Of a stretch of DNA of 64,000 bases, positions 35,918-64,000 are shown in pieces. Position numbers and translations under genes: made by a program. Location of the stretch: assembly GCA_020081605.1 (NCBI GenBank), contig JAHREC010000045.1, positions 62,001 through 126,000 of the forward strand, written 5' to 3'. Source of the DNA: Albifimbria verrucaria (Eukaryota > Ascomycota > Sordariomycetes > Hypocreales > Stachybotryaceae). Position 1 is the first letter of the stretch; every line of letters begins with the position of its first letter. The notes under the pieces are model-generated. The model was not told the DNA's origin and did no database searches. It was given only the letters and a program-made list of their open reading frames with translations.

Positions 35918-38900
35918 ATGACGCATGAAAATCGCTCGAATTTTCGGTCATTTGAAAGGCTACTTCCGCAGAAAATAGATCTAATAGCTTCGGAGACACC
36001 CCAAAAATACACACGTTGTGGCCAGTCAATCCCTTCTCGTATGAAGCGGGTTTCCGAACTATTACTTATGCAGATTTGGCCAACGCCGTAAACGGTCTGT
36101 CGTGGTGGATCGATAAGCAGCTTGGGCCATCCACGGTGGGTGAGGTCCTGGCTTACATGGGGCCTACCGACGTTCGCTATATTGCTCTACTGTTAGCTGC
36201 TACGAAGACAGGCTATGTGGTATGTCAACTTTGTACAATCAATCACAGCAACTAACTTTGCTTCCATAGCTCTTTGTGACTTCCCCAAGGAATAGTGCGG
36301 CGGCACATCGTTCTCTTTTGAGAGTTTGCAATGCCAGACTCTGCTAACCACGGAACCGAAACCGCCGCCAGTAGAACTCATTCTCAAGGCTGTCGGCCCA
36401 AGGTCACTTGCCATTCCGAACCTTGCCGAACTGCTTGACCGGGTCCATCCGATCTACTCTTACAATAAAACCTTTGAAGAAGGACGTGACGATGGGCTAT
36501 TGGTGGTGTAAGTCCTCAACTCTCAATAACCAAGGAATGGTCTAATGTTGAGTCAGCCATACATCTGGGTCAACAGGCATGCCCAAGCCCTTGATGTGGA
36601 CCCTGGAGGCCGCCGCACGGCACCAAGATCTCACGGACCAGAACGCTCCCGTTGGATTCCAATCCGTCGAAGCACTTTGCCGAGGCAAGCAAGTGATGGT
36701 CACGCTGCCCCTTTTCATGTAAGCCATCTCCATAGGTTCTCATTAAGAAATATACTGAAAAGGCTATAGGGTGGCGGGATTATACAGTACCTTATGACCG
36801 CGTTGGCTCTGGATACAATTGTCGTCTCACCTGCAGCCAGAGGCATAGCTACCGGCCAAGGCGTCGTAGAAGCTCTGAAACAAACACCAGCCGAGATTGC
36901 TCTCCTCGTACCTTCGATAGTGGCGGAGTTAGCACAGGATCCTGAGCTTCTCAGAACTTGTGCGCAACATCTCAAACTTATCCTTTATATGGGAGGCGAT
37001 CTCCCCAGGCCATCGGTGATAAAGTTGCATCCGTAATACCTCTACGGTGCGTATGGGGTGCTTCCGAGGTGGGCGTTCCACAGCAACTCATAAATCCCGA
37101 GCTAGGGCCAATGGATTGGAAGTATATCCAATTTCATCCCTCTCTGGGAGCTGAATTCCAAGACGTGGGAGACGGTCTCCACGAGCTGGTCATCCCGCGG
37201 CGAGATGAGCTATCTAAATTCCAGACCACCTTCAGCATCCGCAACTTAGCCGACCTGAAGGAATATCGTTCCCGTGACTACTTTTGGAAACATCCAACCG
37301 TCTTTGATGCGTGGAGTTGGGTTGCTCGAGCTGATGATATCATCGTACTACTTAATGGAGAGAAGATCAATCCTATTTCCATGGAGGGCCAGATCCTGGC
37401 TAAGAACCATGAACTGTCTGGCGCCATTGTCTTCGGCTCTCAGAGACTGCAGGCAGGTTTGCTCATAGAGCCCAATGATGCAGCAAATATAAGCTCTACT
37501 GCTGAGAAGGCCGCTCTGATAGAGCGCATCTGGCCTAGCGTTGAGGAGGCCAACCGTCTCAACCCTGCGCATGGCCGCATAGAAAAGGCTTTCATTATTG
37601 TAACAACGCCGGGTCGTCCAATGATACGTGCTGGAAAGGGAACTGTACAGAAACAAGCCACTTTTGCCGCATACGCCGCCGAGATCGATCACGCGTATGC
37701 AGATGCGGAGATTGCTAGCAGCAATGACGGCGGGGGCGGCGGAGGCGAAACAGCTGAGAATCTTAGTGTTGATGCGACTGTCACTTTAGTCCGCAACACT
37801 GTTCAATCGGTGATGGAATGGCCTGCACTAGTCAATTCTGACAATTTCTTTGATCTCGGTCTTGATTCCCTGCAGGCATTACGGATTATACGAGCCTTGC
37901 GCCGTGGTTTACGTCGGCCAACTTTGGCTATCTCTTTGATATATAAGAACCCGACGATATCTCTACTGGCTGCTGCAATTCTTGGCCAGAATGACCTTCC
38001 CGGTGACGACATAGACATGATGAGCTCACTATTATCTACATACACTGCCTTGGTTCAACAAATCCCTAAACCATCATCTTTTATAGCACGCCCGGATGGT
38101 CCATTCGACGTGCTCTTAACCGGGTCTACAGGATATATAGGAACCTATCTACTTCATTCCCTCCTAACTCGCCTGGATATTCGTCATGTTTTCTGCCTTA
38201 ATCGACGGGATGCAGACAGCGCTCGCGCGGTACAACTTGAACGCTTTGCGTCTGCTGGTCTTTTGGGAAGTGAGCTTGAAGACCGTGTAACGTTTATTAA
38301 GGCCGAATTATCGCATCCGCGCTTTGGCCTATCAGACGATACTTACAAGATACTACAGAGCCGCGCTGAGCTCGTCGTTCATAATGCGTGGCCAGTGAAT
38401 TTCAGTCTGGAGCTTACTAGCTTCCGGCCTCACTTGGCTGGGGTTGTAAGTCTCTGCGCACTTTCGGCTACCTCGGGGCGGACTATCCCAATTATTTTCA
38501 TGTCATCAGTTACTGCAATGGGCTGTCAACCAGCTCCCGAGGTTATCCTCAAGCCGCTTTCTACGCCACATCCAAACGGATACGCACGAAGTAAGTTCCT
38601 TGCGGAGTTGCTCCTCAATGACGCCTCAAGGTACTTGGGAATCCCTACTACCATAGCTCGTGTTGGACAGGTAGCGGGTCCCATTCAGCAAAAGGCTTAT
38701 GGAACCCTAGAGAATGGCTTCCAAGTCTCATACGTAGCTCGATGTTCTTGGGGTGCTTACCGGATAGCCTTGGGGCCCAGTTTAGCGAAGTTGACTGGAT
38801 TCCGTCAGATGTGCTGGCTGAAGTCATTATGGATATTGCAGTCAACAGCCAAGCCAACTCTCATAGTAGTTCCGCAGCCCAGGTTTATAACCTACGAAAT

Positions 38901-39247
38901 CCTAACACTATCAGTTGGAAGGAGCTGTTGCCTACAGTCCAAGCTGCTACTCAAGAGAGGTGCGGTCGGGCGGTTGAGATTGTTATACCCTCCGCTTGGA
39001 TTGAGAGATTGCGGCGAAGCATGACAACTATCCCAATGAACGGTGATATCTACGGATTGGCGAAGGCTGCTGAAGACAACCCTGGCATTAAACTTTTGAA
39101 TTTTATCAGGATAACTTGTGGGCTGCAGCAACATATCCTTCTCCCATGGACATAGATCGTGCGCTGAAGGTAAGTCCTACTCTACAGGCTCTACCCGCTG
39201 TGAGCACCGCGTGGATGCGCAAATGGATGGATGAATGGAATGCATAG
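35918..39247 (+). CDS. NRPS-like carboxylate reductase (A-T-R)
   Basis: A stand-alone adenylation-carrier-reductase enzyme that activates a carboxylic acid with ATP, tethers it as a thioester and releases it by NAD(P)H reduction, usually as an aldehyde. The A domain has HTSGSTGMPKP (about 36560) and GEKINP near 37360. The carrier motif LGLDSLQALR has its serine at 37867-37869. The reductase has TGSTGYIGTYLL (about 38120) and the YARSK catalytic Tyr-Lys pair at 38581-38595. Introns fit at 36220-36269, about 36510-36556 and about 36719-36769. The start at 35918 gives ERLLPQKIDL, a plausible N-terminus. Frame breaks at 36003, 36316, 37003, 38690 and 39101 are all four- or five-base runs. It may provide an aldehyde or amino-aldehyde precursor, or act on a shunt acid; the substrate cannot be read. 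Confidence 0.87.
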
Positions 39248-40463
39248 GATTGTCAGATATCGGTTAAAAAAGCGAAACGTGCGTAAGTCTTCTACTATAA
39301 CTTACAAGGGAAAGCAAGTAAAGGTTATGTAGTAAAATCTTAGTCTTTGGTACACTTTTAATTTTCTTCTATAATAAATCTAAGCAGTATTTCATAAAGA
39401 ATGTTATTGTCCAGCACATTTTACATCATATAACCTCGCCGGTCTCCTTGCCATCCAGGTTCTCCCTCACAAATCAATAGTGCTGCATTCCCTTTTCATC
39501 TTACGACTACGTGAGCTTGTTCAAAGCTCTCTTACCCTCCACGTCGATTTCAAGGTTCATGATGACGGGATAAGATACCCCATGTTTTCGCCATCACAAG
39601 TTCCGTTGGTAATACGAGAAAGGAATCACATTGCTCTTAGATCGAATGCAGAAATTGAAGGAATGACGGAGACATCTGGTAAGTTTCGGTAAACTCCAGG
39701 GGCGAACCTGAATGAGTAGCCACGTCAATTCTCCTCCGTATGACACCTTGTGAATTTTACAATAATGCGTTACAACCAACACATTGGCAGACACCCTGGC
39801 CCTTTTGCAGTGCTCAGTCGATGCTATCAAGCGTAAGCACAAAAGTGGAGCTGATAAAGTGGCCAGAGATTAGCTCCATCAAGTAGGGTTTCGCTAGAGA
39901 CTAACATTTGAAGCAGTACTGTTATATGCACGTGTTTCCGTTATTGGGAAGAATGAAACAACGGCTCAGTTTACATGCTTTGAATGGCTGCCTGGGAGTC
40001 AGAAGCGGGAAGTGGTATCATTCTCGCTCTCGAATCATGTAGGTAGAGCGATGTGTTAACCAACATATGACCCACGCCACGTTTCCTTCGCCAAATACCC
40101 TGCTCATGGATGCACTGCAACCTCATGGTTCGACCGGAATCCAGCCAGGTTGTGGCAGCCGGTGAAAGAGCATTTCCGACATGTCCGGAGCATCAGCCAA
40201 CACACCGCTATGATAGTAGGTATGTGCGTTGATTCTCGGAGGCAGGTGTTTGATGTTGTTGGTCCTGAATGCGACGTTTCATGCATCAATTATTGCATAA
40301 TGAATCTAGTCTGGAATTCAGAGTCTTCGATTATGCCGCAATTCTCAGGGCAGCAGAGTTCGTCTGGACAGAAATTCGGTGCACGAAGCTATCTAAGATC
40401 CTTATCATAATTCATTAGCGTATAAATCCTCCGAGACGGTTGTTGATATAACGGCAAGTCAAT
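39248..40463. other. Intergenic region between A-T-R and GMC genes
   Basis: About 1.2 kb without a convincing gene on either strand. Short open frames here show no family motif. The first 200 bases are AT-rich and likely hold the 3-prime end of the preceding transcript. The promoter of the GMC gene is expected near the right end. Confidence 0.45.
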
Positions 40464-42340
40464 ATGTCCACAGACCTGCAGTGCTACGACTTCTTGATCG
40501 TTGGGGTGGGACAGCAGGGCTCGTAGTTGCATCGCGGTTATCAGAGAATCCCAAGCACTCAGTCCTCGTTCTCGAAGCTGGACTGGATCTTAGCAACGAC
40601 CCACGTGTCACAACGCCGGCCTTTACACGCAGCTTCTGAGCTCCGAGGCGGACTGGGCGTTCCAAACTGTGCCCCAGGTAGGTGCGGCGCACCAAGCCTC
40701 AACCTCAGTCTGACTAACCTCATCATAGGAGAACCTCAACAACAGAGTCGTAGCCATCAACCAAGGCAAAGCCTTAGGTGGCTCCAGCTCTATTAATGCC
40801 CAAGTTGTCGTGCCCCATCTAAGAGTCTGATTGATACGTGGGAGTCTTTGGGTAATCCCAGTTGGAATTGGGAAACCCTGAAGAATTATTTTGATAAGGC
40901 GTTTAGCCCAGCCGTTGTTGATGAGGTTCTCAAGGAACAGCTTGGTATCGAGGGTGGCCACCCAACCCAGAGCACACTGGTGGTCCAATAAGGACATCCT
41001 TTCAGGGTGACCTGACGCATCCCATTCGTCAAGCCTGGGCAGAAACTTTCAGAGCGAGGCAGCAGTACATGTTTGATAACCCATACTTTAATGCGACCCT
41101 TGGCTCCTTCAGCTGCCTGGTATCAGTCGACTCTACCAAGGGTGAGAGGAGCTATGCGACCTCTGCTTATTACAACCCTATCAAATCAAGGCAAAATCTC
41201 CATATTCTTACTGGTGCTACAGTTAAGAGGATCCTTTTTACAGAAAGCAATGGTAAACATAGGGCTATCGGCGTCGAATATTTATTGGACGGAAAAGATG
41301 TCGTTGCTACTGTTAGGCTAGAGGTTATTCTAGCCGCGGGTGCAATACAGTCGCCAAAGGTTCTTGAGCTATCTGGCATTGGTGATGCCCATCTTCTAAA
41401 GAAGCATGGCATCACTGTGCTCAAGGACCTATCTGCAGTTGGTGAGAACCTACAAGATCATTTAGTAGGTGGGATCTCATATGAGGTGCAGGATCATGTG
41501 AGCTCCCTAGATGCGCTTATGCGAGGAGAGCCTGCGGCACTTCAAGAAGCGATGCAGTTGTATCAGACTAACCGAACTGGTCCACTTACTTCTATTGGAC
41601 TTGGAACTTACGCCTACCTGCCTGTTATCAAACATCTGAGCCCAGAAGGGCGCGAGACTCTGAAGCAGATGCTCAAGAAGAACCGACCTGCAGTCACATC
41701 AGATGTTGCAAATGCACGCGACCGTGCCTTCTATAAGGTGACCGAGGACTCCTTCTTGATTCTACGAAGCCTTCTGCAGCTTTTTTAGCGTCACTGCCCA
41801 AATAGTCGTCCCGGTGGAAAAAGGTTCAGGATCACCTGAAGGTCCTGTAGCGGGAAAATGGTTGACGATCGCGGCAATGCTAGCAGCACCTCAATCCCGC
41901 GGTAGCGTTCACATCTCGTCAAGTGATATCAATCAGCCTCCCACTATCAATCCGAAGTACTTCTCAAATGAAGTCGATCAAGAGGTATTCGGGCAACACT
42001 TACTATATATCGAAGATATTGCAGCTGCACCAGAGCTTAAGGGCCTTCTCAAGCAACCCTTAGTCCGCAGGGACCCCAACTCACACCTAACGGATCTAAA
42101 TACAGCAAAAGAATTTGCACGGAGGAGCTCTGTTTCCAACTGGCATCTTGCAGGCACGTGTGCAATGCTACCAGAGGACAAGGGCGGTGTTGTGGGGTGG
42201 ATCTGAAAGTTCATGGAACCACGAATCTCCGGATTGTAGACTCAAGCGCAATCCCCATCATCAGCACGGCTAATTTGCAGGCCACAGTCTATGCCTTTGC
42301 AGAGCGAGCAGCTAATTTGATTAAGATTTCGCACCAGTAG
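40464..42340 (+). CDS. GMC-family FAD oxidoreductase
   Basis: A glucose-methanol-choline type flavoprotein that oxidises alcohols to aldehydes, with transfer of electrons to oxygen or another acceptor. The N-terminus carries the ADP-binding fold (YDFLIVG followed by a glycine-rich stretch, 40485-40520) and VLVLEAG. Next is QGKALGGSSSIN (the GMC signature near 40765), then LAAGAIQSPKVLELSGIG (second signature, 41335-41390) and DLSAVGENLQDH. The C-terminal domain has the catalytic His in SNWHLAGTCAM (about 42140) and NLQATVYAFAERAA. One intron is at 40678-40728. Frame breaks at 40503, about 40636, 40813, about 40980, about 41765 and 42194 fall mainly on G or C runs; the one near 41765 is less clear. 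Length bridged is about 600 residues, normal for the family. It is probably a tailoring enzyme of the cluster. Confidence 0.85.
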
Positions 42341-43429
42341 TTAGTTCTGGGAAGAATAACCCTCAATGGTTTATTGATCACTGTAGTGGATGGTACAATA
42401 TTATTATCTTCTTTCTCGTGCTTCTCATATTGTTATTAAAAAGGCATTCCAGAGCTGAACTGTATCAATCATCTGGTGAGTCACGCAGTTTTCGCTTATT
42501 AGAATGGAATAAAACCGTGCCAAACTTCATATATAGCAGGCGGAGCGTGAGAGTAGTTTAGAGATGATCCTCCGAGTCTGAGTATGTCAGTTATTGAGTG
42601 TCAATGGAGGCAAGAATTTCTTGCAAAACGCTAGCCTATCATGCACATACAACTGACACTTCGTCAAGGACACTTATTCAAGGAATGTATCCAACTAGGA
42701 AAATACGGTAGCCGCTAACTTCTTCATTGTAAAAAGATCCAGCGACGGGCAGTAAAAACATTCTATAATGAGTAATTCACCACCCTCCCGGTATGTAACC
42801 GACCTCGAAAGGACTTCGTTACGCTTGGTTGATGGCTCTAGGAGGATGCTAACAGTAGTCTAGAGCAAAAATCACGCATACTGAATGGTCTGCTCTGACG
42901 CCGTCTTTTGTACAACACGTCACTGCCGGCCCAGGGGTTAGCATCCGCTAAACATATGACCGAATCCCCTTTGCCACAACTTGAGAATGAGTAGTGGCCC
43001 AGATCATCCTTCAATGAGGATACTGAACAAGTATGAACCTCTTGTTGGTTATTTACTATGGATAGTAGGACGCCGAGGTTACATCCGTCTGACATATTAT
43101 GACATTGCCAGCCAACAGCATACCGCACTTGGCGAAGCTCTGACAATGGGCAAAGGGGCTCCGCTTCCAACTTTCCCCGTACAGAACCAACTCGCCCTGC
43201 ATCTCTCGCTGGTATCGATGGTTAGCTGTGAATCCATTATAACTTTATTAGAACTGTTGGCAAGCCCTGGGTTTGTGACTGTCAAACGAAGATATATCGT
43301 TTTCTGCATCGCACTTCCTCCTGCGTACCTTAGTACCCCGGAATTTGTTCTAAAAAGAATAATATTAAGCTGCTACTTCACCCTTCTTGTCCGTGAGATC
43401 TCCACTATTCACAGTGAATTTCTTTCGAG
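42341..43429. other. Intergenic region between GMC and P450 genes
   Basis: About 1.1 kb with no supported gene. A 183-codon open frame at 42981-43532 overlaps the P450 N-terminus in another frame, has no recognised domain and is taken as chance. The promoter of the P450 is expected here. Confidence 0.45.
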
Positions 43430-45199
43430 ATGGCCCTCTTCAGTAATCTTCTTGTCATTGCACGATATATCGGCTATGCTGTCCTTCCTTACGTACGTTA
43501 CCTCCTCCGGCAGCTTTTACATTGTCATCTAACGTCACCAGTGCTTCTATGTCATAATCTACAATCTCTCATTCCATCCCCTCAAAAACTATCCCGGGCC
43601 GCTTCTTGCGAGGATATCCGACTGCTATCCTGGATTTTTCGCTCTGAATCGTACTCTCCCTCAGCGACTCACCGGAACCACCAGAAATATGGTCAGTGTC
43701 ACGCAATATTGCTTTTTGAAAGACCACGATCTAATCTTGTGTAGGAAATGTCATGCGATTTGGACCTAATCGGCTTATTTTCAACACCGCTACAGCTCTT
43801 CATGGTCGGTTTGAGTCCATACGCATCCAAGCCGAATTACTTGCTAACAGGACAAAGACATCTATCGACACCCTAATGTTACGAAATCTGACGTTTATCT
43901 GTTCTCCGTTGCTGGAACGTTACCATTCATCTTCAATACTCTCGACAGGGATGATCATCTCCGCAAGCGCAAGATAATCAGCCCAGCCCTCTCCGAGCGG
44001 TCGATGCGTGCTTTTCAGCCCATCATGATCCAACAGATCAATGTTTTCCTGGACCTGATTTCAACAAAATCAGTGTCCAGCCCTATTGATATATCCCTCT
44101 CTGTCGAAGACTTGCCATGGATATCGCTGTCCACCTCGGTTTTGGAGCCACCTTGAATCTCCAAACTACGACAGACCACGATTTTATCTTTACCGGCACA
44201 TCCATCGCAAATTTTCGTATAAATTCCTACATGAACTTTCCCTCCCTATCCAAACTTCAGCTTGACCTTATCCTCAAGAACACCCCAATGAGGCGCAGGT
44301 GGCGGGGCATCGTGGCAGACATGATCCAGGAGCGACTCAAATACGAGCCGGACGCGAAGCATGACTTCTACTCCTTTGTCAACAGCGGCTTGAATGACGG
44401 CAAGGACATACAGAGCTCGGAGTTGTTTGCAGAGTCGTTATTCATCCTATCAGCAGGTTAGTACTAGCCATAACAGACTAGTTGATATCGCGACATACTT
44501 ACGGATGGAAGCTGGCGACACAATATCTGCGACACTGGCAGGTGTTTTCTTTTACCTGTCGAGAAACACCGAATGCTATGAGAAAGTTGTCAAGGAGGTT
44601 CGCAGGAACTTTAACAGTGACGCCGACATCAGCAGCGGAATAGCCCTGAAAAATTGCCGATACCTCCATGCGTGTATTAACGAGACACTCCGGATGTCTC
44701 CTCCAATTGGAGGGACTTTGTGGCGTGAAGTCGTTCCCGAGAAGGGCAAGCAACTATTGATTGTCGACGGCCACGTTATTCCGCCAGACACTCTAGTAGG
44801 AGTTAACATCTACTCTCTCCACCATAATGAGAAATACTTTCCTGATCCCTTTAGATTTAATCCTGATCGCTGGTTAGCATCCCCGTTGACTGGCGATGAG
44901 CAGGATGATGAGGCTATTACGTCAGAAATGCACCAGGCTTTCACTCCCTTTTCCGTGGGCATTCGTTCATGCGCAGGAAAGCAATGGCTTACCTGGAGGC
45001 GAGTTTGGTCATCGCCAAAGTTTTGTGGCATTTTGACTTTGAACAGGCACCCGGAGCACAAGGAGAAATCGGCGCTATTTACAGGAACACGGCATTTGGC
45101 ACGAGGGTCGAGTTCAAAACATTGGATGCAATCACGTCACGCCATGATGGGCCGTATCTCAAGTTCGTGCCCAGAATTGAAAATAACAAGGAGCAGTAG
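43430..45199 (+). CDS. Cytochrome P450 monooxygenase
   Basis: A microsomal P450 that hydroxylates or otherwise oxidises a substrate using a haem-bound oxygen. It opens with a hydrophobic anchor (MALFSNLLVIARYIGYAVLP) and, after an intron at 43493-43541, a proline-rich hinge FHPLKNYPGPLLA. The I-helix AAGDTISA is formed across the intron 44457-44511. ETLRMSP supplies the ExxR motif near 44690, RFNPDRWL follows near 44860, and the haem ligand Cys lies in FSVGIRSCAG near 44960-44975. Further introns fit at 43692-43744 and about 43805-43850. Frame breaks occur near 43691, about 44110 and about 44980; the 43805-43850 splice is one base out of phase. It sits beside the GMC oxidoreductase and is likely a tailoring or precursor-modifying enzyme. 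Confidence 0.85.
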
Positions 45200-46229
45200 C
45201 TGAAAAATAGGTAGTTCGCTCGATTAATCCTATTCCGCTGATTGACCAGCCGCACAGCATAGCATGTGGAAATTTTCTCCAGTCAATTTGTAGCACGTCT
45301 CACATCTGCTTTAACTGTAGTACGCACGCTCTCTTTGTTGTGATATGTATGTAATCACTGCTTCTAGACCTGAGCCATCCAATAAGTCTTGTCTTCAATC
45401 CATCAGCATATGACACGGATGACTCATTGGGAGAACTCCCTACATATGGATCCTCTCGTATACCACTTGCTGGTTATGGAGAAATCGTGGGCAAACTGGT
45501 ACGACTGGCGGAGCGGGCCACCTTGTAGATTAGGCGGCTGGCGACAGCAACTTGAATACCATCCATAGCACAGATTGGACGCACCAGCTGCAGAAGAGCA
45601 ATAAAGAGTCCATGGATTAACCCCATACTGATTGGTCGTTTGGCTGGCTATCAACCCATCCTTGTTCCGCGACGCAATACAACCGGGCTAAGGGTCGAAC
45701 GGTAGTTGTCGACATCATATCGTAGTAGTTGTTAGCGATTTCTGCATGTATGATGTTGTCGAGAACTTAAGTAGCTTCGGGTCCTTGGAAATTGTTTGGG
45801 TCATGTCTGAACAAGTTAGTTTTGGGGTTGTCCACAAACCTGGAGTCAAAATGGCATACATATCTTCCAATTTAAACTGGCGTATCAACAAAATTCTATG
45901 AGAAGCAGGGGACCACCCTGGAGGCTGATGGAGATCCATCACCGAAAGTGATGGTTGCACTTATCGTGACTATTCCAAAGCTGGGCCTTTTACAAAACCA
46001 CATATCATTTTACAGAGATTAACACCAACTTATCTGACCCGACATCTCTACAAGAGAAGGTCTTATCTTTCAATGTGACAATCAAATTTTCCAGTTTTGT
46101 ACCGAGGGCTTGATCGAACGGATCAACCACCCCAAATTCAGCCTTCCTCGTCCAATTTTCCATTGCTTCAAATACATGCTCCCTACGCTGTACCACTCAA
46201 ACAAGCACAAAATATAGCATTCAGTACCA
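45200..46229. other. Intergenic region with unassigned minus-strand open frames
   Basis: About 1 kb. Minus-strand open frames at 45715-45960 and 46005-46196 encode 81 and 63 residues with no domain that I recognise. They could be pieces of a broken gene given the frameshift rate of this assembly. I do not assign a product. Confidence 0.35.
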
Positions 46230-51405: not shown

Positions 51406-53090
51406 TATCTAGACAGCACTTTTAGGCTCATCTTCTTAATGCTCAGCCTTTTAATAGCCTTGTAATCCGTACTTGGCGATGAGACGAGAAGCTACCCTAT
51501 ACTGGATTTCGTCGGGGTCTGGAAAAGCCCGGCACGTGACCTGAAGCAGCATAGCAATCTCAGAGATGAAACACAGTGAGACCGTTTCTTCTTCTTTTTC
51601 TGTTTGTTCTCTCCTATCAATGTGGGCATGCCTTTAACCCTGAAAATTGCTGGAACCTGTATGCGCACAACCAACAGCTCGTCCCCAAGGACCGTAGCGG
51701 GCTGGCAACCCGGAAGTGTATTTTGCCGAGTGGCCCGCATGCTTCAATGATTTGATTTGATTCGATTTTGAATGCAACCCACACGTTCAGGATTATATGT
51801 ATTATGCAAGAGCGGCACAACCTTGCATACTACCTTGACTACATACAGTACATAAAGGACCGGGGAGCAAGCTGTACGAATAACGGTACTGCCGTGTGTG
51901 GGTCGATATCCCTGTCTACCTACTTACTGGATGCGCACACATCCTTGTTCTCATCAATCCTTGGCGCTACCCTTGTCACGCTAATTGTGACTCTAAACCA
52001 ACCGCATTAAAAGATGCCGTCGTGACCATTTATCACCTGTTATGGACTCATCTTGCAGTGATTTGCTTACATGCCCTTTTTGGCGGCGAGGCTTTCTTTG
52101 CTCATCAGGACACGATAATTCACCGGTGTCATTGCCCTCACTTGTAGATGATTGGTGGAGACTGGGCACAGCGAGTGGGATGCGTTGTTATATGAAACTT
52201 CCCAGATGCAGCAATGGGTGGTCGCTTTCCGGTGGGCAACTCTGCAGGGGGAACCAACTGACTGGATCGCCTGCCATACACGGATATAGCCGCGAGCGCG
52301 AGGGGACTTTTTCAGCCGTGTCTGGTTGGTGGCCTCAGGCTGATCGTAGCAGAGCAGATACAGCAGAGTTCTGGAGGATACATCACACACGTCTCAGACC
52401 GAAGAATGAGACCATGGCGGCAATTTTGTATGGTTAGACTCACCGACCGTTTGAATTCGGCCTCCTTCTGGCACAACACAGCACCAAGATACCCCAAGTC
52501 CCATGGGGTCCCTACATGACGCTTCAGCCACTTTCGAGCGTTGAGCAGGTTGTGGGGTTCGTTCTTGAATAATGGCACGAGCCTCGGATCTGTTCAACTA
52601 TCTCGTCTCTTTTGGAACCAGGGTGGCGGTAAATGACCAACGAAGAAGAAGCACAAGACAAGAATTCGAGAAAAGATCAGTCAGTTGCATTTTCGGCATT
52701 TTTCGCCCTAACCGAAACAAAGGTGGGTCCGCAAGATCTGGATATGCCACCATGAGAGGATCACAGCGATGACTTTCCCTAACACGGAAGACGTAGCATG
52801 TATCCTGGCTGTCTTGTTCCCTAGGAACACATCCAAGGGCACCCAATAACAAGGTGATAGTAAATTTGACAAATGCCCTGCTCCTTTTTGCTTCCAGTTG
52901 AATCAACAGACCAAAACAGCAAGGCATCCTCCGTCCTCTTCTGTCTTCCCGCACTCCTGGACACCCTCTACCAGCATGCCTTGTATTCGCGATTAACTGA
53001 TGGCGTTGGCGCAGAAATACCTGACCGCCTTTAATACTAATACACCTGAAGGTGTTATTGCCTACCGAAGTGCCGGCTGCAAGCACTATA
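51406..53090. other. Gene-poor interval
   Basis: About 1.7 kb. The longest open frame (52598-53086, minus, 162 residues) and another at 52312-52578 (minus) show no recognised domain and have uneven composition, so they are not annotated. No repeats with clear borders were seen. Confidence 0.45.
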
Positions 53091-53690
53091 GTAAATAAAA
53101 TAAAATATATATAATAATTGATAATACTTTATATTAAAATATAAAATCAATAGATTAATAAACTTATTAGAACTAATTTAATAAATATATACTATTTATA
53201 ATTAATAATCTTTTAGTTAATTATTTAATTAGTTTATTATAATATAAGATTATTTAAAAATAATAATAAGATTATATATTTATATATTTAAATATATAAA
53301 TATTTAATTATATAATAATATATTTTTAACTTAATTTAATTTATATTAATCTTATATACTCTTAGTATATTTTATTATATTTCTTTAATAATTATATAAT
53401 ATTATTTATATAATAATAAATATTATTATAATAATCATTAAATTATATAATTATAGATTTATATTAATTATTATTTATAATTCTACTATTATATATATAT
53501 TTACTTATAATCTATAATTATATAAGTTATTAATTAATTAAAATATAATATTATCTTTTCTTTTATTTAAATAAATATAAATATAATATATAATTATAAT
53601 ATTATTATACTTTATTAAATATAGAAAATAATATATATTACTACAATTATAATATACATTTGAACTTTCTATTAATAGCACGCATTAACC
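53091..53690. repeat. Extreme AT-rich island
   Basis: A block of about 600 bases composed almost entirely of A and T. Counting by eye, bases 53101-53640 contain roughly 30 G or C (near 6 percent). The sequence is an irregular mix of TAA, ATA and TTA steps without a fixed repeat unit. It starts abruptly after 53090 and ends shortly before the stop codon of the gasdermin-like gene at 53712. Such islands in ascomycetes are often mutated repeats (RIP), centromere-like or boundary DNA; a mitochondrial insertion is another option. No coding content. Confidence 0.8.
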
Positions 53691-53711: not shown

Positions 53712-54577
53712 TCAGTTATCTTTTAGCAAATCCTTATAAATAATAAATGTACTTTCAGATCCGCAAATCTTCGCAGTGACCTCCGCTTGCTCCGGGACGT
53801 CGTCGAGGCCTTTCACGAATGCCTCAACCTCAATGCCGCTGCCCTTAGGGCCCTTGGAACAATCAAATGACGTCCATGTCACTTTCTTCGCTAACTCTGG
53901 TGACTCCCTATTCTTCTTCTGAAGAATAATCTCAAAATACCCAACAGCGAAAATACGCTCTCCCGGAGCAATGAAAGCTGTGCGTTGCTGTTGGCTCTGC
54001 TCTTGTTTTAATTCGATCTTTGAATCAATTGCACTAGCCAATGCTTTGCCTCCGGGGTTCAGGGTTGTCGAACTAGGAGCAATGGCCTCGACAGCGAATG
54101 ATACTGGCAAATTGGCCAGGGCTTTGACTTCGGCCGTTTTGCCCTGGCCCAATGCAAGTGAAGCATCTTGAATAGTGTGGATCTCAGTAACCAAATAGAT
54201 TCTTGATCGATGCTTGTTATCTTCGACCCACTTTTTCGCCTTTTCACCACGCAAAATCTCCTCAAGCCTGTCTTCGGGATTGAGAAGCTGGTATCTCACG
54301 GCTTTTTAGATTTCACGCTGTCGTCAGCAGCACCGGATCTCTTGATGAGGAGGTTGAGTAGCTTTGTCAGAGCATGCCCGAATGTGAAAGACGAATCCGA
54401 CTCCGTCAAACTATAAATACTTTCGAACTCATTTCGAGAAAATTTGGCTAAATCGAGTTCGAAAGTCTCGGAGTCGTGAAATTTACGGGTAGGGTTATTG
54501 GTATCAGCAACGAGGCGGCCAAGTGTAACCTCATTAAAATTGAGGAAACCGGACATGAACTTCGAGATAGCTCTCAT
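53712..54577 (-). CDS. Gasdermin-like protein (candidate pore-forming cell-death executor)
   Basis: Two open frames join at a five-T run (plus strand) at 54303-54307 into one protein of about 288 residues starting at 54577. The pattern fits gasdermin N-domain proteins: an early GRLVAD segment, a central IYLVTEI strand (about 54200-54180) that parallels the YVVTEV strand of animal gasdermins, and a late PGERIFAVGYFEI strand (about 53945-53905) in the place of the animal SGSTLAFRVAQLVI strand. Fungal gasdermins (for example HET-Q1 of Podospora and RCD-1 of Neurospora) insert in the plasma membrane and kill the cell, HET-Q1 after proteolytic trimming of its C-terminus. The divergent neighbour is a CHAT protease, the partner type expected for such proteins. 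Assignment rests on motif pattern and context, not on a search; another beta-rich fungal family is possible. Confidence 0.5.
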
Positions 54578-55242
54578 TGTGTAATTGATGTAATTTTGTT
54601 TCTTGGATACGGGATGTGGTTTCAAAAATAACAGAGATAATACCGAGGGTAGCAGAATTGTTACCATATGAGAATGGCGATCAAGAGGGGCGCGGGCAAA
54701 CAGACGAGGCAAAGGCTCGTACAAGACCTATATTCCGAATTTCCATTCTTGTGAGCCAGGGAACATAGTAATTATATCGTAATTTATCGGAAAATTTTCA
54801 CTTTTCCCTCAATATCGCGGGTCATATTTTTTTTTTAAACTTTGGTGACATTACCCTTCATCAGCCTCAGCCTCAGCCTCTCAGTTCATTCCTATGAAGC
54901 CGGGATATGATTTAACTAAATCATTAGCCATTAAAGCTTTTATCTTTCCCCCTTAGTATCGAGGATTATGTTGCATTTATTATGCTTCGGTGGCACTACG
55001 ATTTATCAGCCTCAACCACCAACTCCAGCCTCACCACCTGACCACATTTCTTGGCTACCGTGAATGCCCGAGATCAAGTTTACATTCAAACCACCCCTGT
55101 TTATTTTCTGTATTCTGTGAATCCTGTTCCAATCGAATAAATTTATCGTTGTTGTGGTGGCATCTGGTCGTAGTATTCATAGGCACTCACCCTCAGAACC
55201 AAAGCCTGCCCCTATTCTGTTGTTGAGCCCCATAAATGAACG
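54578..55242. promoter_or_regulatory. Shared divergent promoter of gasdermin-like and CHAT genes
   Basis: The two genes diverge from a 665-base region, so their expression is probably coordinated. It contains T-rich tracts (for example about 54829-54838) and a short repeated CAGCCTCAG-type motif near 54862-54880, but no known operator. Confidence 0.45.
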
Positions 55243-58200
55243 ATGGATATCAATACATACCACTTGGAGAATAATGTTGCTTTGAAAGAGATGGCAACGA
55301 ATAAATGGAGAACAGCTGTCCAAACCAGTAACAAACAGCTCTTGCAAGAAGCACTCCGCGACATCCGAAGAGCCGTCACACTGTCAGAGGGCGACCCAGA
55401 GAAGCTGGCCAGCTGCCTCAATAACGAAGCTGTTTTTTTGCTTGATCTTGGGTCCATGGAAAGTAAAGTGGGGGTGCATTCGGTATCTTGGAACAATCTG
55501 TTTGTGCTATTGAAAAAGGTATTCCAAATGCTTCGGTTAATCAGAAGAGCACACTGCTACTTACCCTTGGCAATACTCTGCGCACAATGAATAGTTTCGA
55601 CTACGACAGGGATAGACTTAGTCGAGCGATCGCTACATTTGAAGAGGGCCTAAATAATGTCACAACTCCATCTAATAAGCCGAAGCTATTAAATGGCTTG
55701 AGCGCTTCCTTGATGGACAGCTATCTACACAAGGAGGATTCAGAGCTGGAGGATTTGCGCCGGGCTTGCTTTGCTGCAATGAAAGCTGTTAATGAATCAG
55801 ACGATACACATCCTTATCGAGCGGAATTTCTGGACACTTACGCTCTTACTTTCTATTATCTCTTCAATTACCAAGAACCTCGGATGAGTTTTCTAAACCT
55901 TTCCATCGAGATCAGCGAGGAGGCTGTTAGGCTGGCCGAGGCTCAATCGAGCGTCAATGCTTCTTTATGTATATCAAATCTTGCTGGGTCGATCTTGACA
56001 CGTTATCAAATTCAGGGGTCTGTGGTTGACCTTGATCGTGCCCTCGCTGATCTCAGTTTGGCGCTTGGGCATATCAACTCTTCACACCAAGCGTGGAATC
56101 TCTGCTCCTATACGTTTGCGCGGGCGTTGCTGTGCAAATATGAACGAGATGGGGACCTTACAAGTCTGGATTGTTGCATTTCCAAGCTATCAGATTTAAA
56201 TGGATGGATGCCACAGGAGAGTCAATCTGCTCTTGGATATGCCCTTGTCCGGCGTTTCGATGTTTATTCGAAGATCGATGACATAGACAACGCTGTAAGA
56301 ATTCTCAAAACCACGGCACAAGATCTCAAAGAAGATATGTCTTCTTCTTATATATACAGGAACCTGGCCACTGCTCTTCTTGCCCGGTTTGAGCTACGCG
56401 GATCCACGGATGACTTACAGCTGGCCCGAAGTAGAGCGAAAAGAGCTCTTGACCTCCTACCCGAGACATCAAGGGACTACAGTATTGCTCTTACACAATA
56501 TGCCGACGTACTGCTAAGGTCATTCGAGCTGAAACTTGAAAATGGAGAAGATGATGAGGAACTATTGAAAGAAATCATTTCGTATTATGAAAAGGCGGCT
56601 ACGGATCGATCTTTGTGGCGAATCACTGGTTCTGGGCGACTTACTACACTTGGTTACGCTCTCCAACTTCATTGCAGTCATTTCCAGCAACAAGCGGATT
56701 GGTCGAAATGTTTGAATATCTGCGAAGAGGCTACAAAAGCCTCCGAAAACGATCCGAACCGCCATATCGCTCTAGGTCAGGCCGGAGGCGCCTTTTTGGC
56801 GAGAGCTCGCTCCAAGTCAGGCGAGATGCCACAGGAAGAACGCGACGCGTATCTGCAAAAGGCTATTAAATACCTGCACCAAGCACTTGATAAGACTCCT
56901 TCAAGTCACAATTGCCGTGGAATGTGGCTGAATAATCTTGGTCTGGCATATGAAACGCAGTTCAAGGACTCAAGAGAACTATATTCCAGCTCGTATGAGA
57001 AGGGCTTGGCTTTTTATATTAAAGCTGCCAATTTGAGGTCCGCGTCACCAATCCAAAGGGTTACGGCTGTCTATCGTGCATTGAATTTCTCCAATCGTCT
57101 TGATTTGAAGCAGTTATCCTCACTGGCATTGCTTGCCGTGAACCTGATACCGGCCTTGAGTCCACGGATGCTACAACGACGGGACCAGCAGCGCATGATA
57201 TCTATGTTCAGTAATCTCGGCAGCTACAGTGCCGCTATACTCTTGGAAGCCAAGCACGATGTTGTCGATGCGATCAACGCTCTCGAGGCAAGCCGCGGCA
57301 TCATAAGCAACCTCCTACTTGACACACGCAATGATCTCACTATCGTTAAAGAGCATGACGAGTCACTGGCTGCAGAGTTCACAGATATATGTAGCAAACT
57401 AGAGTCGAACTCTGTTCAACTTTCACGATTAAACCAGCCGCTTGATTCAACTTGGGATATGAGTTCCGAGACTCGGATCAAAGCAGCCAAGGCATTTGAC
57501 AATATCATAGATAAGATCCGGAAGATAGAAGAATGCACAAACTTCCTTCGGCAGCCTGATACTGAGACGCTACAAGCATTGACAGGGTCTTCATACATTG
57601 TTGTTGTGAACGTTACCTCCTTCCGATGCGATGCACTGTTCTTTAATTCCGATCGAATTGGGCAAATACATTTGACTGAGCTCAACCTTCAAGACGCTGT
57701 GGATCGAGCGAACGCGCTTACACAAGCCATCCAAAATGACAATACCATTACAAGAAACGCAACCAATGCTCATTTCAGGGAGCTGTTGAGTTGGCTCTGG
57801 AAGGCTCTTGTCAAACCCATACAGGCCGAGCTTCAACAAGGGGTGAAAGGAAAGATTCGAATTTGCTGGGTCGCAACCGGAGTCATGACTAACTTCCCCA
57901 TCCATGCCGCAGCGGATGATACCAGCAACCAAAACGCCTTGGACATGATCATTTCGTCCTACAGCACCACTATTAGCGCAATAAGATTCCATAAACAGAG
58001 AATCAGCCAAATGGCTGACTGCAGTGGACAGGCTCTGTTGGTTTCCATGAATAAGACACCGGATGAACAAGATCTTTCTTTTGCAGACGAAGAGACCACC
58101 TTGCTTCATAACTTGCTCCAACCAGCTATGCCACGAACATGGTTACGTAGCCTTTGCACAGCACCAGTAACATCAGCTCCTACAAAGATAGGGTCCTAGC

Positions 58201-58693
58201 AGAGCTCCGGACAGCAGCTATCGCACATCTCAGTTGTCACGGCATAGCAGACTACAGCGAACCATCCTCGAGCCGGTTACTTCTTTCGGACTGGCAGAGT
58301 GACCCTCTCACAGTCGCGGATATCACCATGGAGCGCCTCCCTTACGCCCGCGTAGCCTACCTGTCTGCCTGCCATGCCGCCGTGAACCGCAATGCCTCTC
58401 TACTAGATGAAGGTATTCATCTTGCTGGGGCCTTCCAGCTCGCCGGCTTCCGGCAGGTAGTCGGATCTCTTTGGCAAGTGAACGATAGGAGAGCCATGCA
58501 GGTCTCCGGGCGAGTGTGGGAAATTTTAGTAATGGAAAGCGGGACAATTGAATACGAGAGATTGGGAGATGCATTAAATTTAGCAATGGTCGAACTGAGA
58601 CAGCGCACGACACGGTTTGACGACGAGGATTCTGATGATGAATATGATGATGAGCCATTTACTTGGGCACCTTTTGTTTACTTCGGCTTATGA
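55243..58693 (+). CDS. TPR-CHAT caspase-like protease
   Basis: About 1,150 residues when two breaks are bridged (a five-G run at 55470-55474 and a position near 58151). The N-terminal two thirds (about 55250-57400) are helical repeats of the TPR type, with recurring units such as ILTRYQIQGSVVDLDRAL, LLCKYERDGDLTSL and LLARFELRGSTDDL. The C-terminal third (about 57570-58690) is a CHAT domain, a caspase-fold cysteine protease: the catalytic His is in AHLSCHG (near 58238) and the catalytic Cys in YLSACHA (near 58370). The typical GSLW segment follows the Cys, and the protein ends with an acidic linker and WAPFVYFG. The repeats likely act as sensor or scaffold. Its divergent partner is a gasdermin-like gene, so cleavage of that protein is the proposed role. 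The CHAT assignment is firm; the substrate is inference. Confidence 0.9.
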
Positions 58694-59544: not shown

Positions 59545-62500
59545 TTAAGTCTTAGTGAACGTAAAATGCTGCGCAACCACCTCCGTAACGACACCCTTGT
59601 TATCAATCCACGTTTCCTCTATAGAGAATGGGAACACATTGTTCGGATCATCCGTCTCTCCTTTCTTCCCCAGCACGCCTCTCAGCTGTAGTGTTAGAGT
59701 CGCACCTTTGGGCACGGTCAGGGCGAGGGTTGTCGAGCTGTTCCGTACCAACACCTGAAAGTTCCTGCTAAAGTCTTTCTCCGTGGCGCCAATCTGGACT
59801 GGGTCGTTGCTGAATGTAGAAGATTTGATGGACCCGCCACTTGAGAGTGACACGGCGACCTGGTTATTCTTCAGTTTGGATGTGTCGGAACCAGCGTCGG
59901 AATCACTCCAATCCTCCGTTTGCTGTGTAGAAAACCACGTGTTTGCAGATGAGCCAGTGGTGAGGCGTGTGGCAATATGATCGAACACAGCATCCCCAGC
60001 AGAATTGTTTGTACCAACAATCGTCACCAGTGCCTCGGATCCGGCAGCTCCTGAATCAGGCGACATGGTCCACGTCAGCTTTGGGCTGGGCGGATCATCA
60101 CACCCGTTGGTGAACGTGTTACCTTTGCCGTCAATCCAGTCCTCTGCCTTGGTTGTCTTTGTCCGTTTCCTCGTGCTGAGAAAAATCGACAAGATGATGA
60201 AGACGATTCCCACAAGGGCAAGGGCCGGTCCTAAGAAGGCACAAACCGTGCTCGTAGCTGATGAGGAAGCGCTGAAGAAGGCTACGATTTCTACTACGGC
60301 CTGCAATACCTGGACACTCACTTGCAGACAGAACAACCAATACCCCGACGAAAACCCGTCCTTATCTTGGAAGAGCTCCCAGACAGAGAGGATGGCAAGA
60401 CCAACTGAAAGAAAAGTCATGACGCCTTCGAAGAAGCGACGGCCACCCTTGGACCAGCCGGACTTTGCCTTGGGGTGGGTCGGTTCGAGGTCGCTTGCGC
60501 TGGATGAGTTTGACACGGCCGAAAGCGATCGCGGCCTGGCCTCACCGGGGCCAAAAGCTTGAAGCTCGATGGACATTGCACTCGGCGATGCTCTCCGTGC
60601 TGCTGCCCGGAGATCGTGCCACTGCTGTTTTCCCTTGACGATGGCAATCATGCCAGGGATGTGGCCTATCGTAATCATAACACTCTTGATGCAAGCGACG
60701 ATACTCTTGGCTTTCCCGGCCGGGGTCAAGTCGTTGAAGCGCGTCACGGCCATGTAGATGTCGGAGGCGGCTATGAGCACCGACACCACGCCAGCGAAGA
60801 GAGGAGCCCAGTATTTCCAGGACTTATCCATAAGCTCGTCCACCTTGACCGAGCCGTCTGCACACATCTGAGCCCTCTGCCATAGGGTCATGGGAACGCG
60901 TTCGTTTATCTCTGCTACCGCTTTCCAGCTCTGGTACAGGTTGCCTAACCCGCCGACGGCCTGGGTCACTGGGAAGAGCATCATTTGGCGTATCTTTTCT
61001 CTGTTTGAAAGACCAAATGCATTAGCTTTACAAGTTCATGTGAACTGGGATAGCAGGGGAACAGTAATAAACAGGATTCTCCATACTTACCCCTTTGTTG
61101 CTGCATCCATCTTTTCAAATTCAACGACACTATCCCGCACGTGGGCCACAGCATCGTCAAAGGGCTTTTGCAGCTTTGCAAACTCAGGAGCTTTAGCTAG
61201 CAGCTTCTGAATCATGGGACCCATGGCGTCTAGAACCCACGCCTGCTTTTCCTTCCAAAAGTCGTCTGTATTCAGAGTGGAGTAGTTGCTATTGGCAACA
61301 TCGTGAAACATCTTATTCTGCACCAACTCCGCCAGTTTGACGCATGGGGCGGGCTCTGGCTTACCATCAGGAAGCTTGAACTTTGTATCCAGCCCAATGG
61401 GGTGCAGTGCCTGGATCACTAGAGACGGTGTCAATCGCAACTGATGGACCGACTATGAGAACGAGGTGAAATGCAACTTACAATTGAGAACTTTCAGATA
61501 CTTCTCCTTGTTCCTACCCAGCTGAGCAAGCGCCTTTTCCGCCCGTGGAGTTCCGTTGAACACGTGTAGATATGCGGCCGCCCATTTCGGACCGCCAATG
61601 CGGCCCTTTTCATCCGCAATATCATCATTGAGATAGGAATCTAGCGGAGCACATATGCGGCGTGCTGCGTATGCCGTCGAAATTTCATTGAGGCGACGGT
61701 AGTGTTCATCGTTGGCCAAGCAGTTGGGGCCCTTGCCCGTCCACCAGTATCTGATTCTCTTAACCTGGCGGTCGTCAAACTTGCGGATCCAATCCTTCAG
61801 CTGCGGCCCGCTCAGGTTCGCAAAAGACATTGCCATGACAGCCGGGGCATACTTGTCTCGTAGCCAGTCTCTCATGGAAGTCTCGAGACCAGCTGCCAAT
61901 TCTTGGGGAAGGTTGCCTGGGTTCTTACCGACCTGTGGCGGATCTGCACTCATGATATCGACCCGATCAGTCGAATCCATATGATAAAGCATGGCCTTGT
62001 AGATAAAATCTTGGGCCGTGTCTATCAGCAACTTGTTATCCAACGGTAAATCGTCGATAGCTCTCACACTCAGTGTCTGAGGCTCGCGCCTTATCTCCTT
62101 GGACAGCAGAGCGGGTGCCGGGGCAAGATGTGAGATCGTGCGTGATTCTAGACGGACTTGGAGATCTGATAACGACGCTGGCATAGCAGCTTGGATGGCC
62201 AGGTTTTTCACAATCGGTGCGGAACTGTCGCGATACTCTCCCTTAACCACGTGCCTTGCTCCCGCACACTCGGCCTGGTTCGCGTCCAAGACCCGAATGG
62301 CGCCAAATGGATCCTCAAGGAGCGGCATTTTGATGGAGAGCGACGAGAAGAGAAATGGAAGTGAAATATCCAATCCCAGCTTCGAGTAAGTCAAATTGGT
62401 AGTCGGGCCTGTCTTTGACTCAACGTCGTATTGATCCGCGGAGGTCCATAGCACTGACGGTTCCTTCAACGTGATGATGATGGTCTCATCACCATTGATA

Positions 62501-64000
62501 TTCTCAATATGTGATTCGTAAATATCCAACTGGTTCTCCAAAGGCTGTTGAAGTTCTTGTTGGGTTTTGATTGTAAGAATGTTTTGCAGCTGGTCAAGCT
62601 CGACTATGCGGTACTCCAGCATAGGAATGCCAACCTCCTCCGTGAAGTCGACAAGTTTCAGCTGAAACAAGTCGGCTGGGCTTTTCAACGGCTGATCAGA
62701 GGCATCGCCATCCGAAGTCTGCCACTCCACTGTATCGTAACTGTCATATAGTCAATAATGTAGACCGTCGCACACCACGCCCAAGGAGCAACGTACCGGA
62801 GGAAAATGTGTTCAGTACCTTGGTACTCTTTAGGAACAATAGAACCTTCCGGAAGGGGTTTACTTTCCTGTATGGTACTCATGGTCACCGATTTGTCCAT
62901 CGGCATAATTCCATTCACACTTGCGTTGTTGATAGCTTCGCTCTGTAGTCCCTTGTCGGCCTCATCTCTAGCAACTGCCTCACTGTTTATCGCGGTTGCA
63001 GTCACCAAAGTAGGGGCTATAACTGCATTAAACTTGCGAAGGCCTATCTCAGGCACATCATGTGCATCCAATATGTCGGAATAAAAGAGACCGCCGGAGC
63101 CGTAATACAACGGACGAACAAACTTACAAAACCCGTGCTCATAGACATTTGCCGTTACCTCGCGGCTCCAGGCAACTAGACTGGGCTTGATAAGTGCTCT
63201 TTCACAATATTGTCCATTTACAAAGACGACGTTATCAATAACGGTCAGAGCTGGCAGGTCGTGTTCAAAGCCATCCCGAGGACCTGAGTCCTCCAGAGTC
63301 CATGAGCGATCGATATTAGCCAGGTTGACGCTGGCATATGCTTTCGACTTGACTACCTTGGCAGGATCAAGCCTTTCCGAATGAGATTCCATGTTCCGAA
63401 GCTGTTGCTGCAGTGCTTGTAGTACAGTGGTGCTGCCAAACCTCTCGAATGTGTCCTGAATTTCGGGAAGTTTACACAGCGCGGCGACCTGCTGGGCTGG
63501 TGTAAGATTCACTAGCAAGTCTGCAAGCTTCCGGCTTGTATTCTCGGGCATGTTTGCCTGAACCAGGTATCCGTTTGCAAAATATGACTGAGCTGTGTCT
63601 CCGTCAAAGTGGAGGTCGTAAACAGTCTCGATATGAGCTAACGATGAGGACAGGGACTCAATCTTAACAAAGGAAAGGGCCTGTCCGTCCGCACTATGAA
63701 TGAGGACATGACCAGCAGTCAATCGCCCAATATCTCCCCACGGATTCTGCCGTCTAGCTGCCACTGGATCAATTGCTCGAATTCCCGTCGTGGTATAGAA
63801 GCAGTGGCTGTCAGTGAAGAAAGGGTCTTCGCCGTTGAAACCGTATAATTTCCTGCCTCCGAGGGAATCTTGACGCAATCTCGGATTGAACCGACAGAAG
63901 TCTCCTCGCCTTTTCGCGGTAGCGATTTTACAGAAGTTCCGCCTATGATAGTCTCTATTGGCTTCTCCCCTCAGCAGTCTGGATTTTAGTTCCAGGGGCA
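59545..64000 (-). CDS. Large Hint-domain multi-pass membrane protein (partial, N-terminus beyond right edge)
   Basis: The window's right edge falls just inside a Hint (hedgehog/intein) domain: PGTKIQTAEG at the edge, LYGFNGEDPFFTDSH with the conserved T-x2-H (near 63815-63804), NPWGDIGRL, and SYFANGYLVQAN near 63575-63550. Hint domains cut or splice the protein at their borders. A long region (about 63500-61090) of unknown fold follows, with introns near 62740, 61440-61482 and 60995-61087. The C-terminal part (60984-59545) has about five hydrophobic segments (for example YWAPLFAGVVSVLIAAS, GVMTFLSVGLAILSV and LVGIVFIILSIFL) and a beta-rich tail. At least two frame breaks lie near the right edge (near 63870 and 63955). 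It could be a self-processing surface or polymorphic-toxin-like protein. The Hint assignment is good; the function is unknown. Confidence 0.7.
63530..64000 (-). other. Hint (intein-like) domain
   Basis: Blocks in order are GTKIQTAEG (block A region; the nucleophilic Cys would lie just beyond the window), TDSH (block B T-x2-H) and YFANGYLVQAN (the C-terminal blocks). The last motif lacks the usual His before Asn (Gln instead), which may slow or alter C-terminal cleavage. A run of three G (plus strand) near 63870 causes a frame break inside the domain. Confidence 0.65.

Follow-up and report, generated by a model that had tools for sequence, protein, structure and literature searches.

Do two adjacent genes, one resembling the fungal gasdermins (fGSDMs) and the other encoding a tetratricopeptide-repeat protein with a CHAT protease domain (TPR-CHAT), work together as a cell-death module? 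This question is raised by a divergent gene pair within a stretch of 64,000 nucleotides (C33:62001-126000, referred to as the window) from a genome of 48.4 Mb in 41 contigs. Its gene content points to a filamentous fungus as the source, and the best named relatives of the TPR-CHAT protein are from ascomycetes. In our estimation, with a probability of about three in four, the pair is a two-component fungal cell-death module in which the gasdermin would be switched on by the TPR-CHAT protease. This estimate builds on the gene order, the membership of the small protein in the fGSDMs by sequence, the His-Cys pair of the CHAT domain, the TPR-CHAT fold modelled for an ortholog, and the recurrence of the pair in the genome.

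The gasdermin-like gene reads as ca. 287 residues on the minus strand (54577-53712), and the TPR-CHAT gene as ca. 1,150 residues on the plus strand (55243-58693), the latter built from three frames. Examination of the open reading frames (ORFs) and of the sequence confirmed the positions and head-to-head orientation given for both genes in a preliminary description of this DNA, and also located the motifs highlighted there: IYLVTEI and PGERIFAVGYFEI fall within the 195-residue ORF at 53712-54299 (minus strand), and SCHG and SACHA within the ORF at 58154-58693 (plus strand). The gene pair is therefore real, but neither gene is a single open frame, with one frame change in the gasdermin (near 54300, where the second frame, open from 54305, overlaps the 93-codon N-terminal frame) and two in TPR-CHAT (near 55470 and near 58150).

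The small protein was originally assigned to the fGSDMs by eye, and statistics now back this assignment through an apparent homology to the Neurospora crassa RCD-1 pore-forming domain (8jyz). The yardsticks for this comparison were gasdermin-like ORFs of the same genome. The ORF on contig C10 (C10:6375374-6375946) was first found with motif patterns, strict and then loosened, that were drawn from the window motif and from known fGSDM motifs; a comparison with the solved structure of RCD-1-1 (8jyz) gave a match at 1.2e-6, or at 3.9e-8 when the upstream frame of C10 was included. With C10 as query we found C33b (C33:1678543-1679418; E 0.71), and with C33b as query the ORF on C22 (C22:490599-491228; E 8.5e-4); C33b and C22 are tied to the gasdermins by pairwise z scores of 9.7 (C10-C33b), 9.7 (C22 with a further ORF, on contig C41) and 15.4 (C33b-C22). 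A leave-out profile, from which the window protein was excluded, combined the ORFs C10, C33b and C22 with both variants of RCD-1. It recovered the window ORF 54305-53715 with an E-value of 6e-7 among 2,910 ORFs of at least 50 residues (inspected loci plus window), as well as the ORF on C41 (E 2.3e-4). The read-through of the window gene scored 2e-6 against this profile, with the best of 5,000 shuffles at 0.37. Using hhalign, the window protein aligned to a profile holding both RCD-1 variants with a P of 3.3e-7, and the sole control run, with the neighbouring 479-residue protein, yielded a P of 0.68.

Pairwise Smith-Waterman comparisons (z from 2,000 shuffles, or 1,000 for RCD-1-2, with the number of shuffles reaching the score in brackets) placed the window protein next to the C41 paralog (z 21.3 (0), score 133), followed by C10 (z 10.0 (0)) and RCD-1-1 (z 7.0 (0)), the last of these being independent of the C10 motif pattern. 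The C41 reading was joined by eye from three frames under guidance of the window protein, a procedure that works in favour of the z of 21.3; its N-terminal half lies in one frame and reached 14.4 (0) against that of the window protein unaided, while the same half gave a weak 4.7 (1) with C10. In the gasdermin reading, the window protein has a conserved core up to about residue 222, followed by a tail of ca. 65 residues that is presumed to be an inhibitory C-terminus.

On the protease side, the complete CHAT domain with a His-Cys dyad that the preliminary description had proposed was borne out, as PF12770 matched both the ORF at 58154-58693 (E 1.4e-21, 77.7 bits) and the ORF at 55488-58199 (E 1.8e-5, 24.7 bits) above the Pfam cut-off of 24. 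SCHG is identical in all 12 aligned proteins, as is the ACH of SACHA, and the same His and Cys are invariant in a 38-member alignment made without the window protein. The TPR-CHAT protein is moreover collinear with intact fungal relatives, with an identity of up to 81% over the second half and of 77% overall to an intact ortholog. Its TPR label fared less evenly: none of the Pfam TPR families exceeded the cut-off in the TPR-CHAT ORFs, but an AlphaFold model of the ortholog P0001 (38 sequences, pLDDT 89.3, pTM 0.86) revealed helical repeats and resembled the Craspase TPR-CHAT, separase and the TPR domain of LGN. Based on this ortholog model, rather than on the window protein's own fold, a TPR-type superhelix is predicted to lie N-terminal to CHAT. 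Craspase is RNA-guided and cuts Csx30. A difference from the bacterial Craspase TPR-CHAT (Csx29) and from separases is the low identity of 10-17% over the aligned parts, and no gRAMP/Cas7-11 partner was seen. At E <= 1, Pfam revealed no nucleotide-binding domain (NB-ARC or NACHT) in the TPR-CHAT ORFs, so that the earlier statement that no NLR is present holds for the TPR-CHAT gene. Two patterns derived from the TPR-CHAT alignment retrieved no relative from viral contigs.

The pairing of a gasdermin with a CHAT gene recurs elsewhere in the genome. Six distinct CHAT loci were distinguished (matches on C17-C19 score the same as that on C12 and were set aside; counts there are lower bounds), and a search of the entire window and of ca. 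7.5-10 kb on each side of the five other loci revealed a gasdermin-like gene beside three of the six (the window, C41 and C33b), each time head to head. The C41 gasdermin-like gene (ca. C41:3260142-3260991, minus strand) is also broken into frames and is arranged head to head with a TPR-CHAT gene, whose start lies near C41:3261450 (pair region C41:3258500-3268400). The N-termini of the C41 and window gasdermins mirror each other (LGRFVVDLKNPQRRYHD and LGRLVADTNNPTRKFHD, respectively), and the CHAT halves of their partners are ca. 26% identical. Judged by these alignments, the genome carries two related versions of the gasdermin/TPR-CHAT pair, between which gasdermin and protease alike have diverged considerably. 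At the divergent C33b pair (C33:1673000-1679418), a 292-residue gasdermin-like ORF lies beside a CHAT gene that runs on into a P-loop/NLR-like protein, the P-loop being recognised by eye. In total, the genome holds at least five fGSDM-like genes, three of which are head to head with CHAT genes.

Other loci of these families were encountered along the way. Another TPR-CHAT gene, ca. 28-32% identical to that of the window, lies at C13:745500-749500, with no gasdermin seen within ca. 9 kb, and one CHAT fragment occurs with equal score on C12:292477 and on C17/C18/C19:40684, probably representing duplicate contigs. The RCD-1-like gasdermin of C10 is convergent with a subtilisin (S8) gene (C10:6375000-6377000), and this was the only one of 30 inspected subtilisin-match loci (out of 81 matches, with flanks of ca. 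1.5 kb) to carry a gasdermin-like ORF in the motif and profile scans. The gasdermin-like ORF at C22:490599-491228 is followed 6-8 kb downstream by a gene that apparently combines an alpha/beta-hydrolase with a nucleotide-binding, NLR-like part (C22:497900-499460), the domains being named by eye.

The recurrence also bears on the way in which the window gasdermin might be activated. According to portions of PMC12881547, activation of RCD-1 does not proceed by cleavage, and in sequence the window protein resembles RCD-1-1 (z 7.0) and C10 more than it does C33b (z 0.9), which is linked to a CHAT gene. This could suggest that the window gasdermin responds to a different allele after cell fusion and is not cleaved, with the adjoining TPR-CHAT gene being unrelated in function. 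We regard such RCD-1-like activation as quite unlikely, however, given the three CHAT loci with a head-to-head gasdermin-like gene in one genome, the retention of this layout by the related C41 pair, and the subtilisin gene that adjoins C10 itself.

Several results weigh against the pair being a gasdermin-based module. The window protein compares weakly with C22 (z 3.6 (13)) and RCD-1-2 (z 2.0, with 51 of the 1,000 shuffles reaching the score), and at chance level with C33b (z 0.9 (364)), while its N-terminal half does no better with C33b (z 0.9 (384)) or C22 (z 0.9 (363)). The C41 paralog is near chance against RCD-1-1 (z 2.0) and scores higher with C22 (z 9.7) and with C33b (z 6.1), so that the window and C41 proteins together bridge the gasdermin family; the near-chance C41/RCD-1-1 and weak RCD-1-2 comparisons slightly lowered our confidence. 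The yardstick C33b alone finds no RCD-1 in the PDB, and with the window gasdermin itself a phmmer search of the PDB missed RCD-1 and returned no gasdermin, Pfam gave no gasdermin match, and a search of its own genome returned only itself. A database of 5.8 billion proteins held no relative of either the 195-residue piece (E <= 0.001) or the read-through (E <= 10). The AlphaFold single-sequence model of a 197-residue piece had a pLDDT of 39, too low to show its fold. Furthermore, both genes are broken in this assembly, and the CHAT loci on C13, C22:629k and C12 have no gasdermin visible to the profiles in the searched flanks; this last result is weak evidence of absence, because the assembly is so broken.

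Neither did searches of GTDB contigs yield a relative of the window gasdermin. Bacterial gasdermins were compared with it via PADLOC models only, none of which matched, in a library not checked for a bacterial gasdermin model or for its reach to fungal relatives. The failed direct searches are not read as an absence of gasdermin relatives, since even the C41 paralog, with its Smith-Waterman score of 133, was estimated to reach only a marginal E-value in a database of 5.8 billion proteins, and since the prefilter needs shared 5-residue words. Alternatively, the TPR-CHAT gene could itself be the module, with the 287-residue protein being some other partner (a substrate, inhibitor or antidote) that merely resembles gasdermins. 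Such a partner would fit the lack of structural confirmation (the pLDDT 39 model) and of direct Pfam, PADLOC or PDB matches, and has a parallel in Aspergillus fumigatus, where, according to parts of PMC11138114, one allele of a het locus encodes a 1,327-residue CHAT protein and the other a 149-residue protein with no predicted domains. We nevertheless deem it very unlikely, as the profile, hhalign and several pairwise statistics group the protein with the fGSDMs across one collinear domain.

The module reading agrees with what sections of the literature report for fungal gasdermins. Clusters with protease genes are reported for about 80% of the gasdermin genes of fungi (17-19% with CHAT or cysteine types), and a large share of these proteases bear TPR, ANK or WD40 repeats (PMC10197012, PMC12881547, in part). 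An adjacent protease gene is also found here, with TPR-CHAT starting 665 bases away in the divergent direction. Podospora anserina has a cluster of two genes in which the gasdermin is activated by a CHAT protease that bears TPRs (Clave et al. 2022, as cited in a section of PMC12881547). Our pair shares with that cluster the adjacency of a gasdermin and a TPR-bearing CHAT gene (portions of PMC12881547 and PMC10197012), a likeness drawn from its description and not from sequence comparison, but differs in that activation was demonstrated there and is predicted here. HET-Q1/HET-Q2 of P. anserina likewise combines a gasdermin carrying a short C-terminal inhibitory tail (presumed for the window protein) with a protease partner; HET-Q2, however, belongs to the subtilisin-like serine proteases and not to the CHAT type, and HET-Q1 and HET-Q2 are idiomorphs of a single locus whereas the window genes co-occur (PMC12881547, in part). 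With RCD-1 the window protein shares the same domain by sequence (z 7.0 with RCD-1-1, hhalign P 3.3e-7) but not the affinity to RCD-1-2 (z 2.0), and RCD-1 is activated by its other variant and not by cleavage (same source, in part). Bacterial gasdermin-protease operons also join a gasdermin to an adjacent protease (extracts of PMC10197012).

By analogy with the known system, we consider the following sequence of events most likely. The pore-forming domain of the gasdermin (about residues 1-222) would be held inactive by its C-terminal tail of ca. 65 residues until the TPR superhelix of the partner senses a cue that signals non-self, a pathogen or damage. Sensing would free the active site of the caspase/separase-like CHAT protease in which the superhelix ends, and CHAT may then cleave the gasdermin at the boundary between core and tail, whereupon the released core would oligomerise in the plasma membrane, form pores and cause lysis, and thus death, of the hyphal compartment.

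The three frame changes, within ca. 4.3 kb of coding sequence, might be assembly errors, introns or signs of decay. All three have the sign of a missing base, and two are located at short homopolymers. GT-AG intron models were enumerated for the gasdermin (25) and for the two TPR-CHAT junctions (44 and 22). Introns at the TPR-CHAT frame changes were rejected, as intact relatives carry residues through both junctions (11 relatives were compared, of which 10 bear on the first junction, since P0002 is without its N-terminus and informative for the second only). An intron in the gasdermin was rejected because the models require introns of 32 nt or remove residues that align with the C41 paralog.

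For comparison, we counted indels elsewhere in the genome as profile matches to neighbouring gene parts that overlap in different frames and leave no room for an intron, using the listed coordinates. Such overlaps numbered 5 among 22 HSP70 matches and 5 among 24 chaperonin matches, with the missing-base sign in 9 of these 10. Long unbroken stretches nevertheless occur in several of the HSP70 and chaperonin genes, so that assembly errors seem to be frequent in this genome, though not universal. In a non-ribosomal peptide synthetase (NRPS) gene of the window (27071-715, minus strand), frame changes of this kind occur at 12 of the 17 junctions among 18 stretches that stay open for 150 codons or more, 9 with the missing-base sign and 3 with the opposite one. 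Since the NRPS and the two chaperone families, HSP70 and chaperonin, are affected by the same kind of change, all three frame changes of the pair are more probably assembly indels than signs of gene decay, judging from the assembled sequence rather than from reads. More generally, broken frames seem to be weak evidence of pseudogenes in this assembly, because many apparent indel errors, mostly of the missing-base sign, affect essential chaperone genes.

These counts also make it unlikely that the pair is a decaying relic, with real frame changes and both genes dead. The density of three frame changes in ca. 4.3 kb would suit a relic, as would the AT-rich, possibly RIP-mutated DNA that touches the 3′ end of the gasdermin, where a nearly pure A/T block (53,090-53,690) adjoins the stop codon. 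Yet similar overlaps are present in HSP70 (5 among 22), chaperonin (5 among 24) and NRPS (12 of 17 junctions) sequences, the missing-base sign prevails throughout (9/10 in the chaperones, 9/12 in the NRPS and 3/3 in the pair), and TPR-CHAT is otherwise open across ca. 1,150 residues with 77% overall identity to an intact ortholog. The A/T block itself, immediately 3′ of the gasdermin gene, may be the remnant of a RIP-mutated repeat.

Table 1. Features of the gasdermin-like/TPR-CHAT locus (window positions)
Feature	Position	Strand	Basis or remark
Gasdermin-like gene, N-terminal open frame	54296..54577	-	93 codons from ATG 54577; N-terminal half alignable to the C41 paralog (z 14.4)
Gasdermin-like gene, second open frame	53712..54299	-	195-residue ORF, stop ends at 53712; leave-out profile, hhalign
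Gasdermin frame change	54296..54311	-	between both ORFs, next to a short homopolymer; likely an assembly indel
Divergent intergenic region	54578..55242		665 bases separating the two start codons
TPR-CHAT, first open frame, helical repeats begin	55243..55471	+	collinear with intact relatives
TPR-CHAT, main open frame: TPR-like superhelix and first CHAT half	55467..58199	+	Pfam CHAT E 1.8e-5; ortholog model
TPR-CHAT, third open frame: second CHAT half, catalytic pair, stop codon	58151..58693	+	Pfam CHAT E 1.4e-21
CHAT (caspase-like) protease domain, across the second frame change	57780..58687	+	PF12770 match limits
Presumed catalytic His codon (SCHG)	58238..58240	+	conservation in alignments
Presumed catalytic Cys codon (SACHA)	58370..58372	+	conservation in alignments

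Elsewhere in the window, the NRPS (715-27071, minus strand) is multi-modular, with condensation, adenylation and N-methyltransferase-like domains in the three ORFs that were scanned. Possible companions of it lie on the plus strand at 36958-45203 and comprise an AMP-binding/PP-binding/NAD-binding-4 reductase (36958-39024), a GMC oxidoreductase (41069-41788) and a P450 (44394-45203). Three ORFs of 479, 425 and 397 residues at 59545-63878 (minus strand) had no Pfam match above cut-off, and a scan of the window with Rfam found nothing above the gathering score.

The pair is a further example of fungal gasdermin/CHAT pairs, and the novelty ascribed to it in the preliminary description was overstated, such pairing being already described in parts of PMC10197012 and PMC12881547. 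It is mildly unusual in the strong drift of its gasdermin and in having a related second pair elsewhere in its genome. We tentatively raise the possibility, doubtful as it is, that the window protein and the C41 paralog form a fast-evolving fGSDM branch that is dedicated to head-to-head TPR-CHAT sensors and that may have escaped sequence surveys. This branch would be marked by an N-terminal LGR-V-D--NP-R--HD motif and, in the window copy, by VTE replacing VTG; it may have been overlooked because the effector has diverged past ordinary search sensitivity while the sensor is ca. 60-80% conserved across fungi. In that case, an unrecognised gasdermin would lie beside numerous TPR-CHAT genes of Fusarium, Aspergillus, Stachybotrys and Hyaloscypha. 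Single-sequence searches missed the gasdermin of the window, so the neighbours of TPR-CHAT genes merit checking with profiles. With this locus, the gasdermin/CHAT modules of fungi gain one more concrete pair. Sections of PMC12881547 pose for the field the question of what is detected by the multidomain sensors of the protease type, and a TPR-only sensor with many conserved relatives beside a divergent effector would be a tractable place to address which cue such a sensor perceives.

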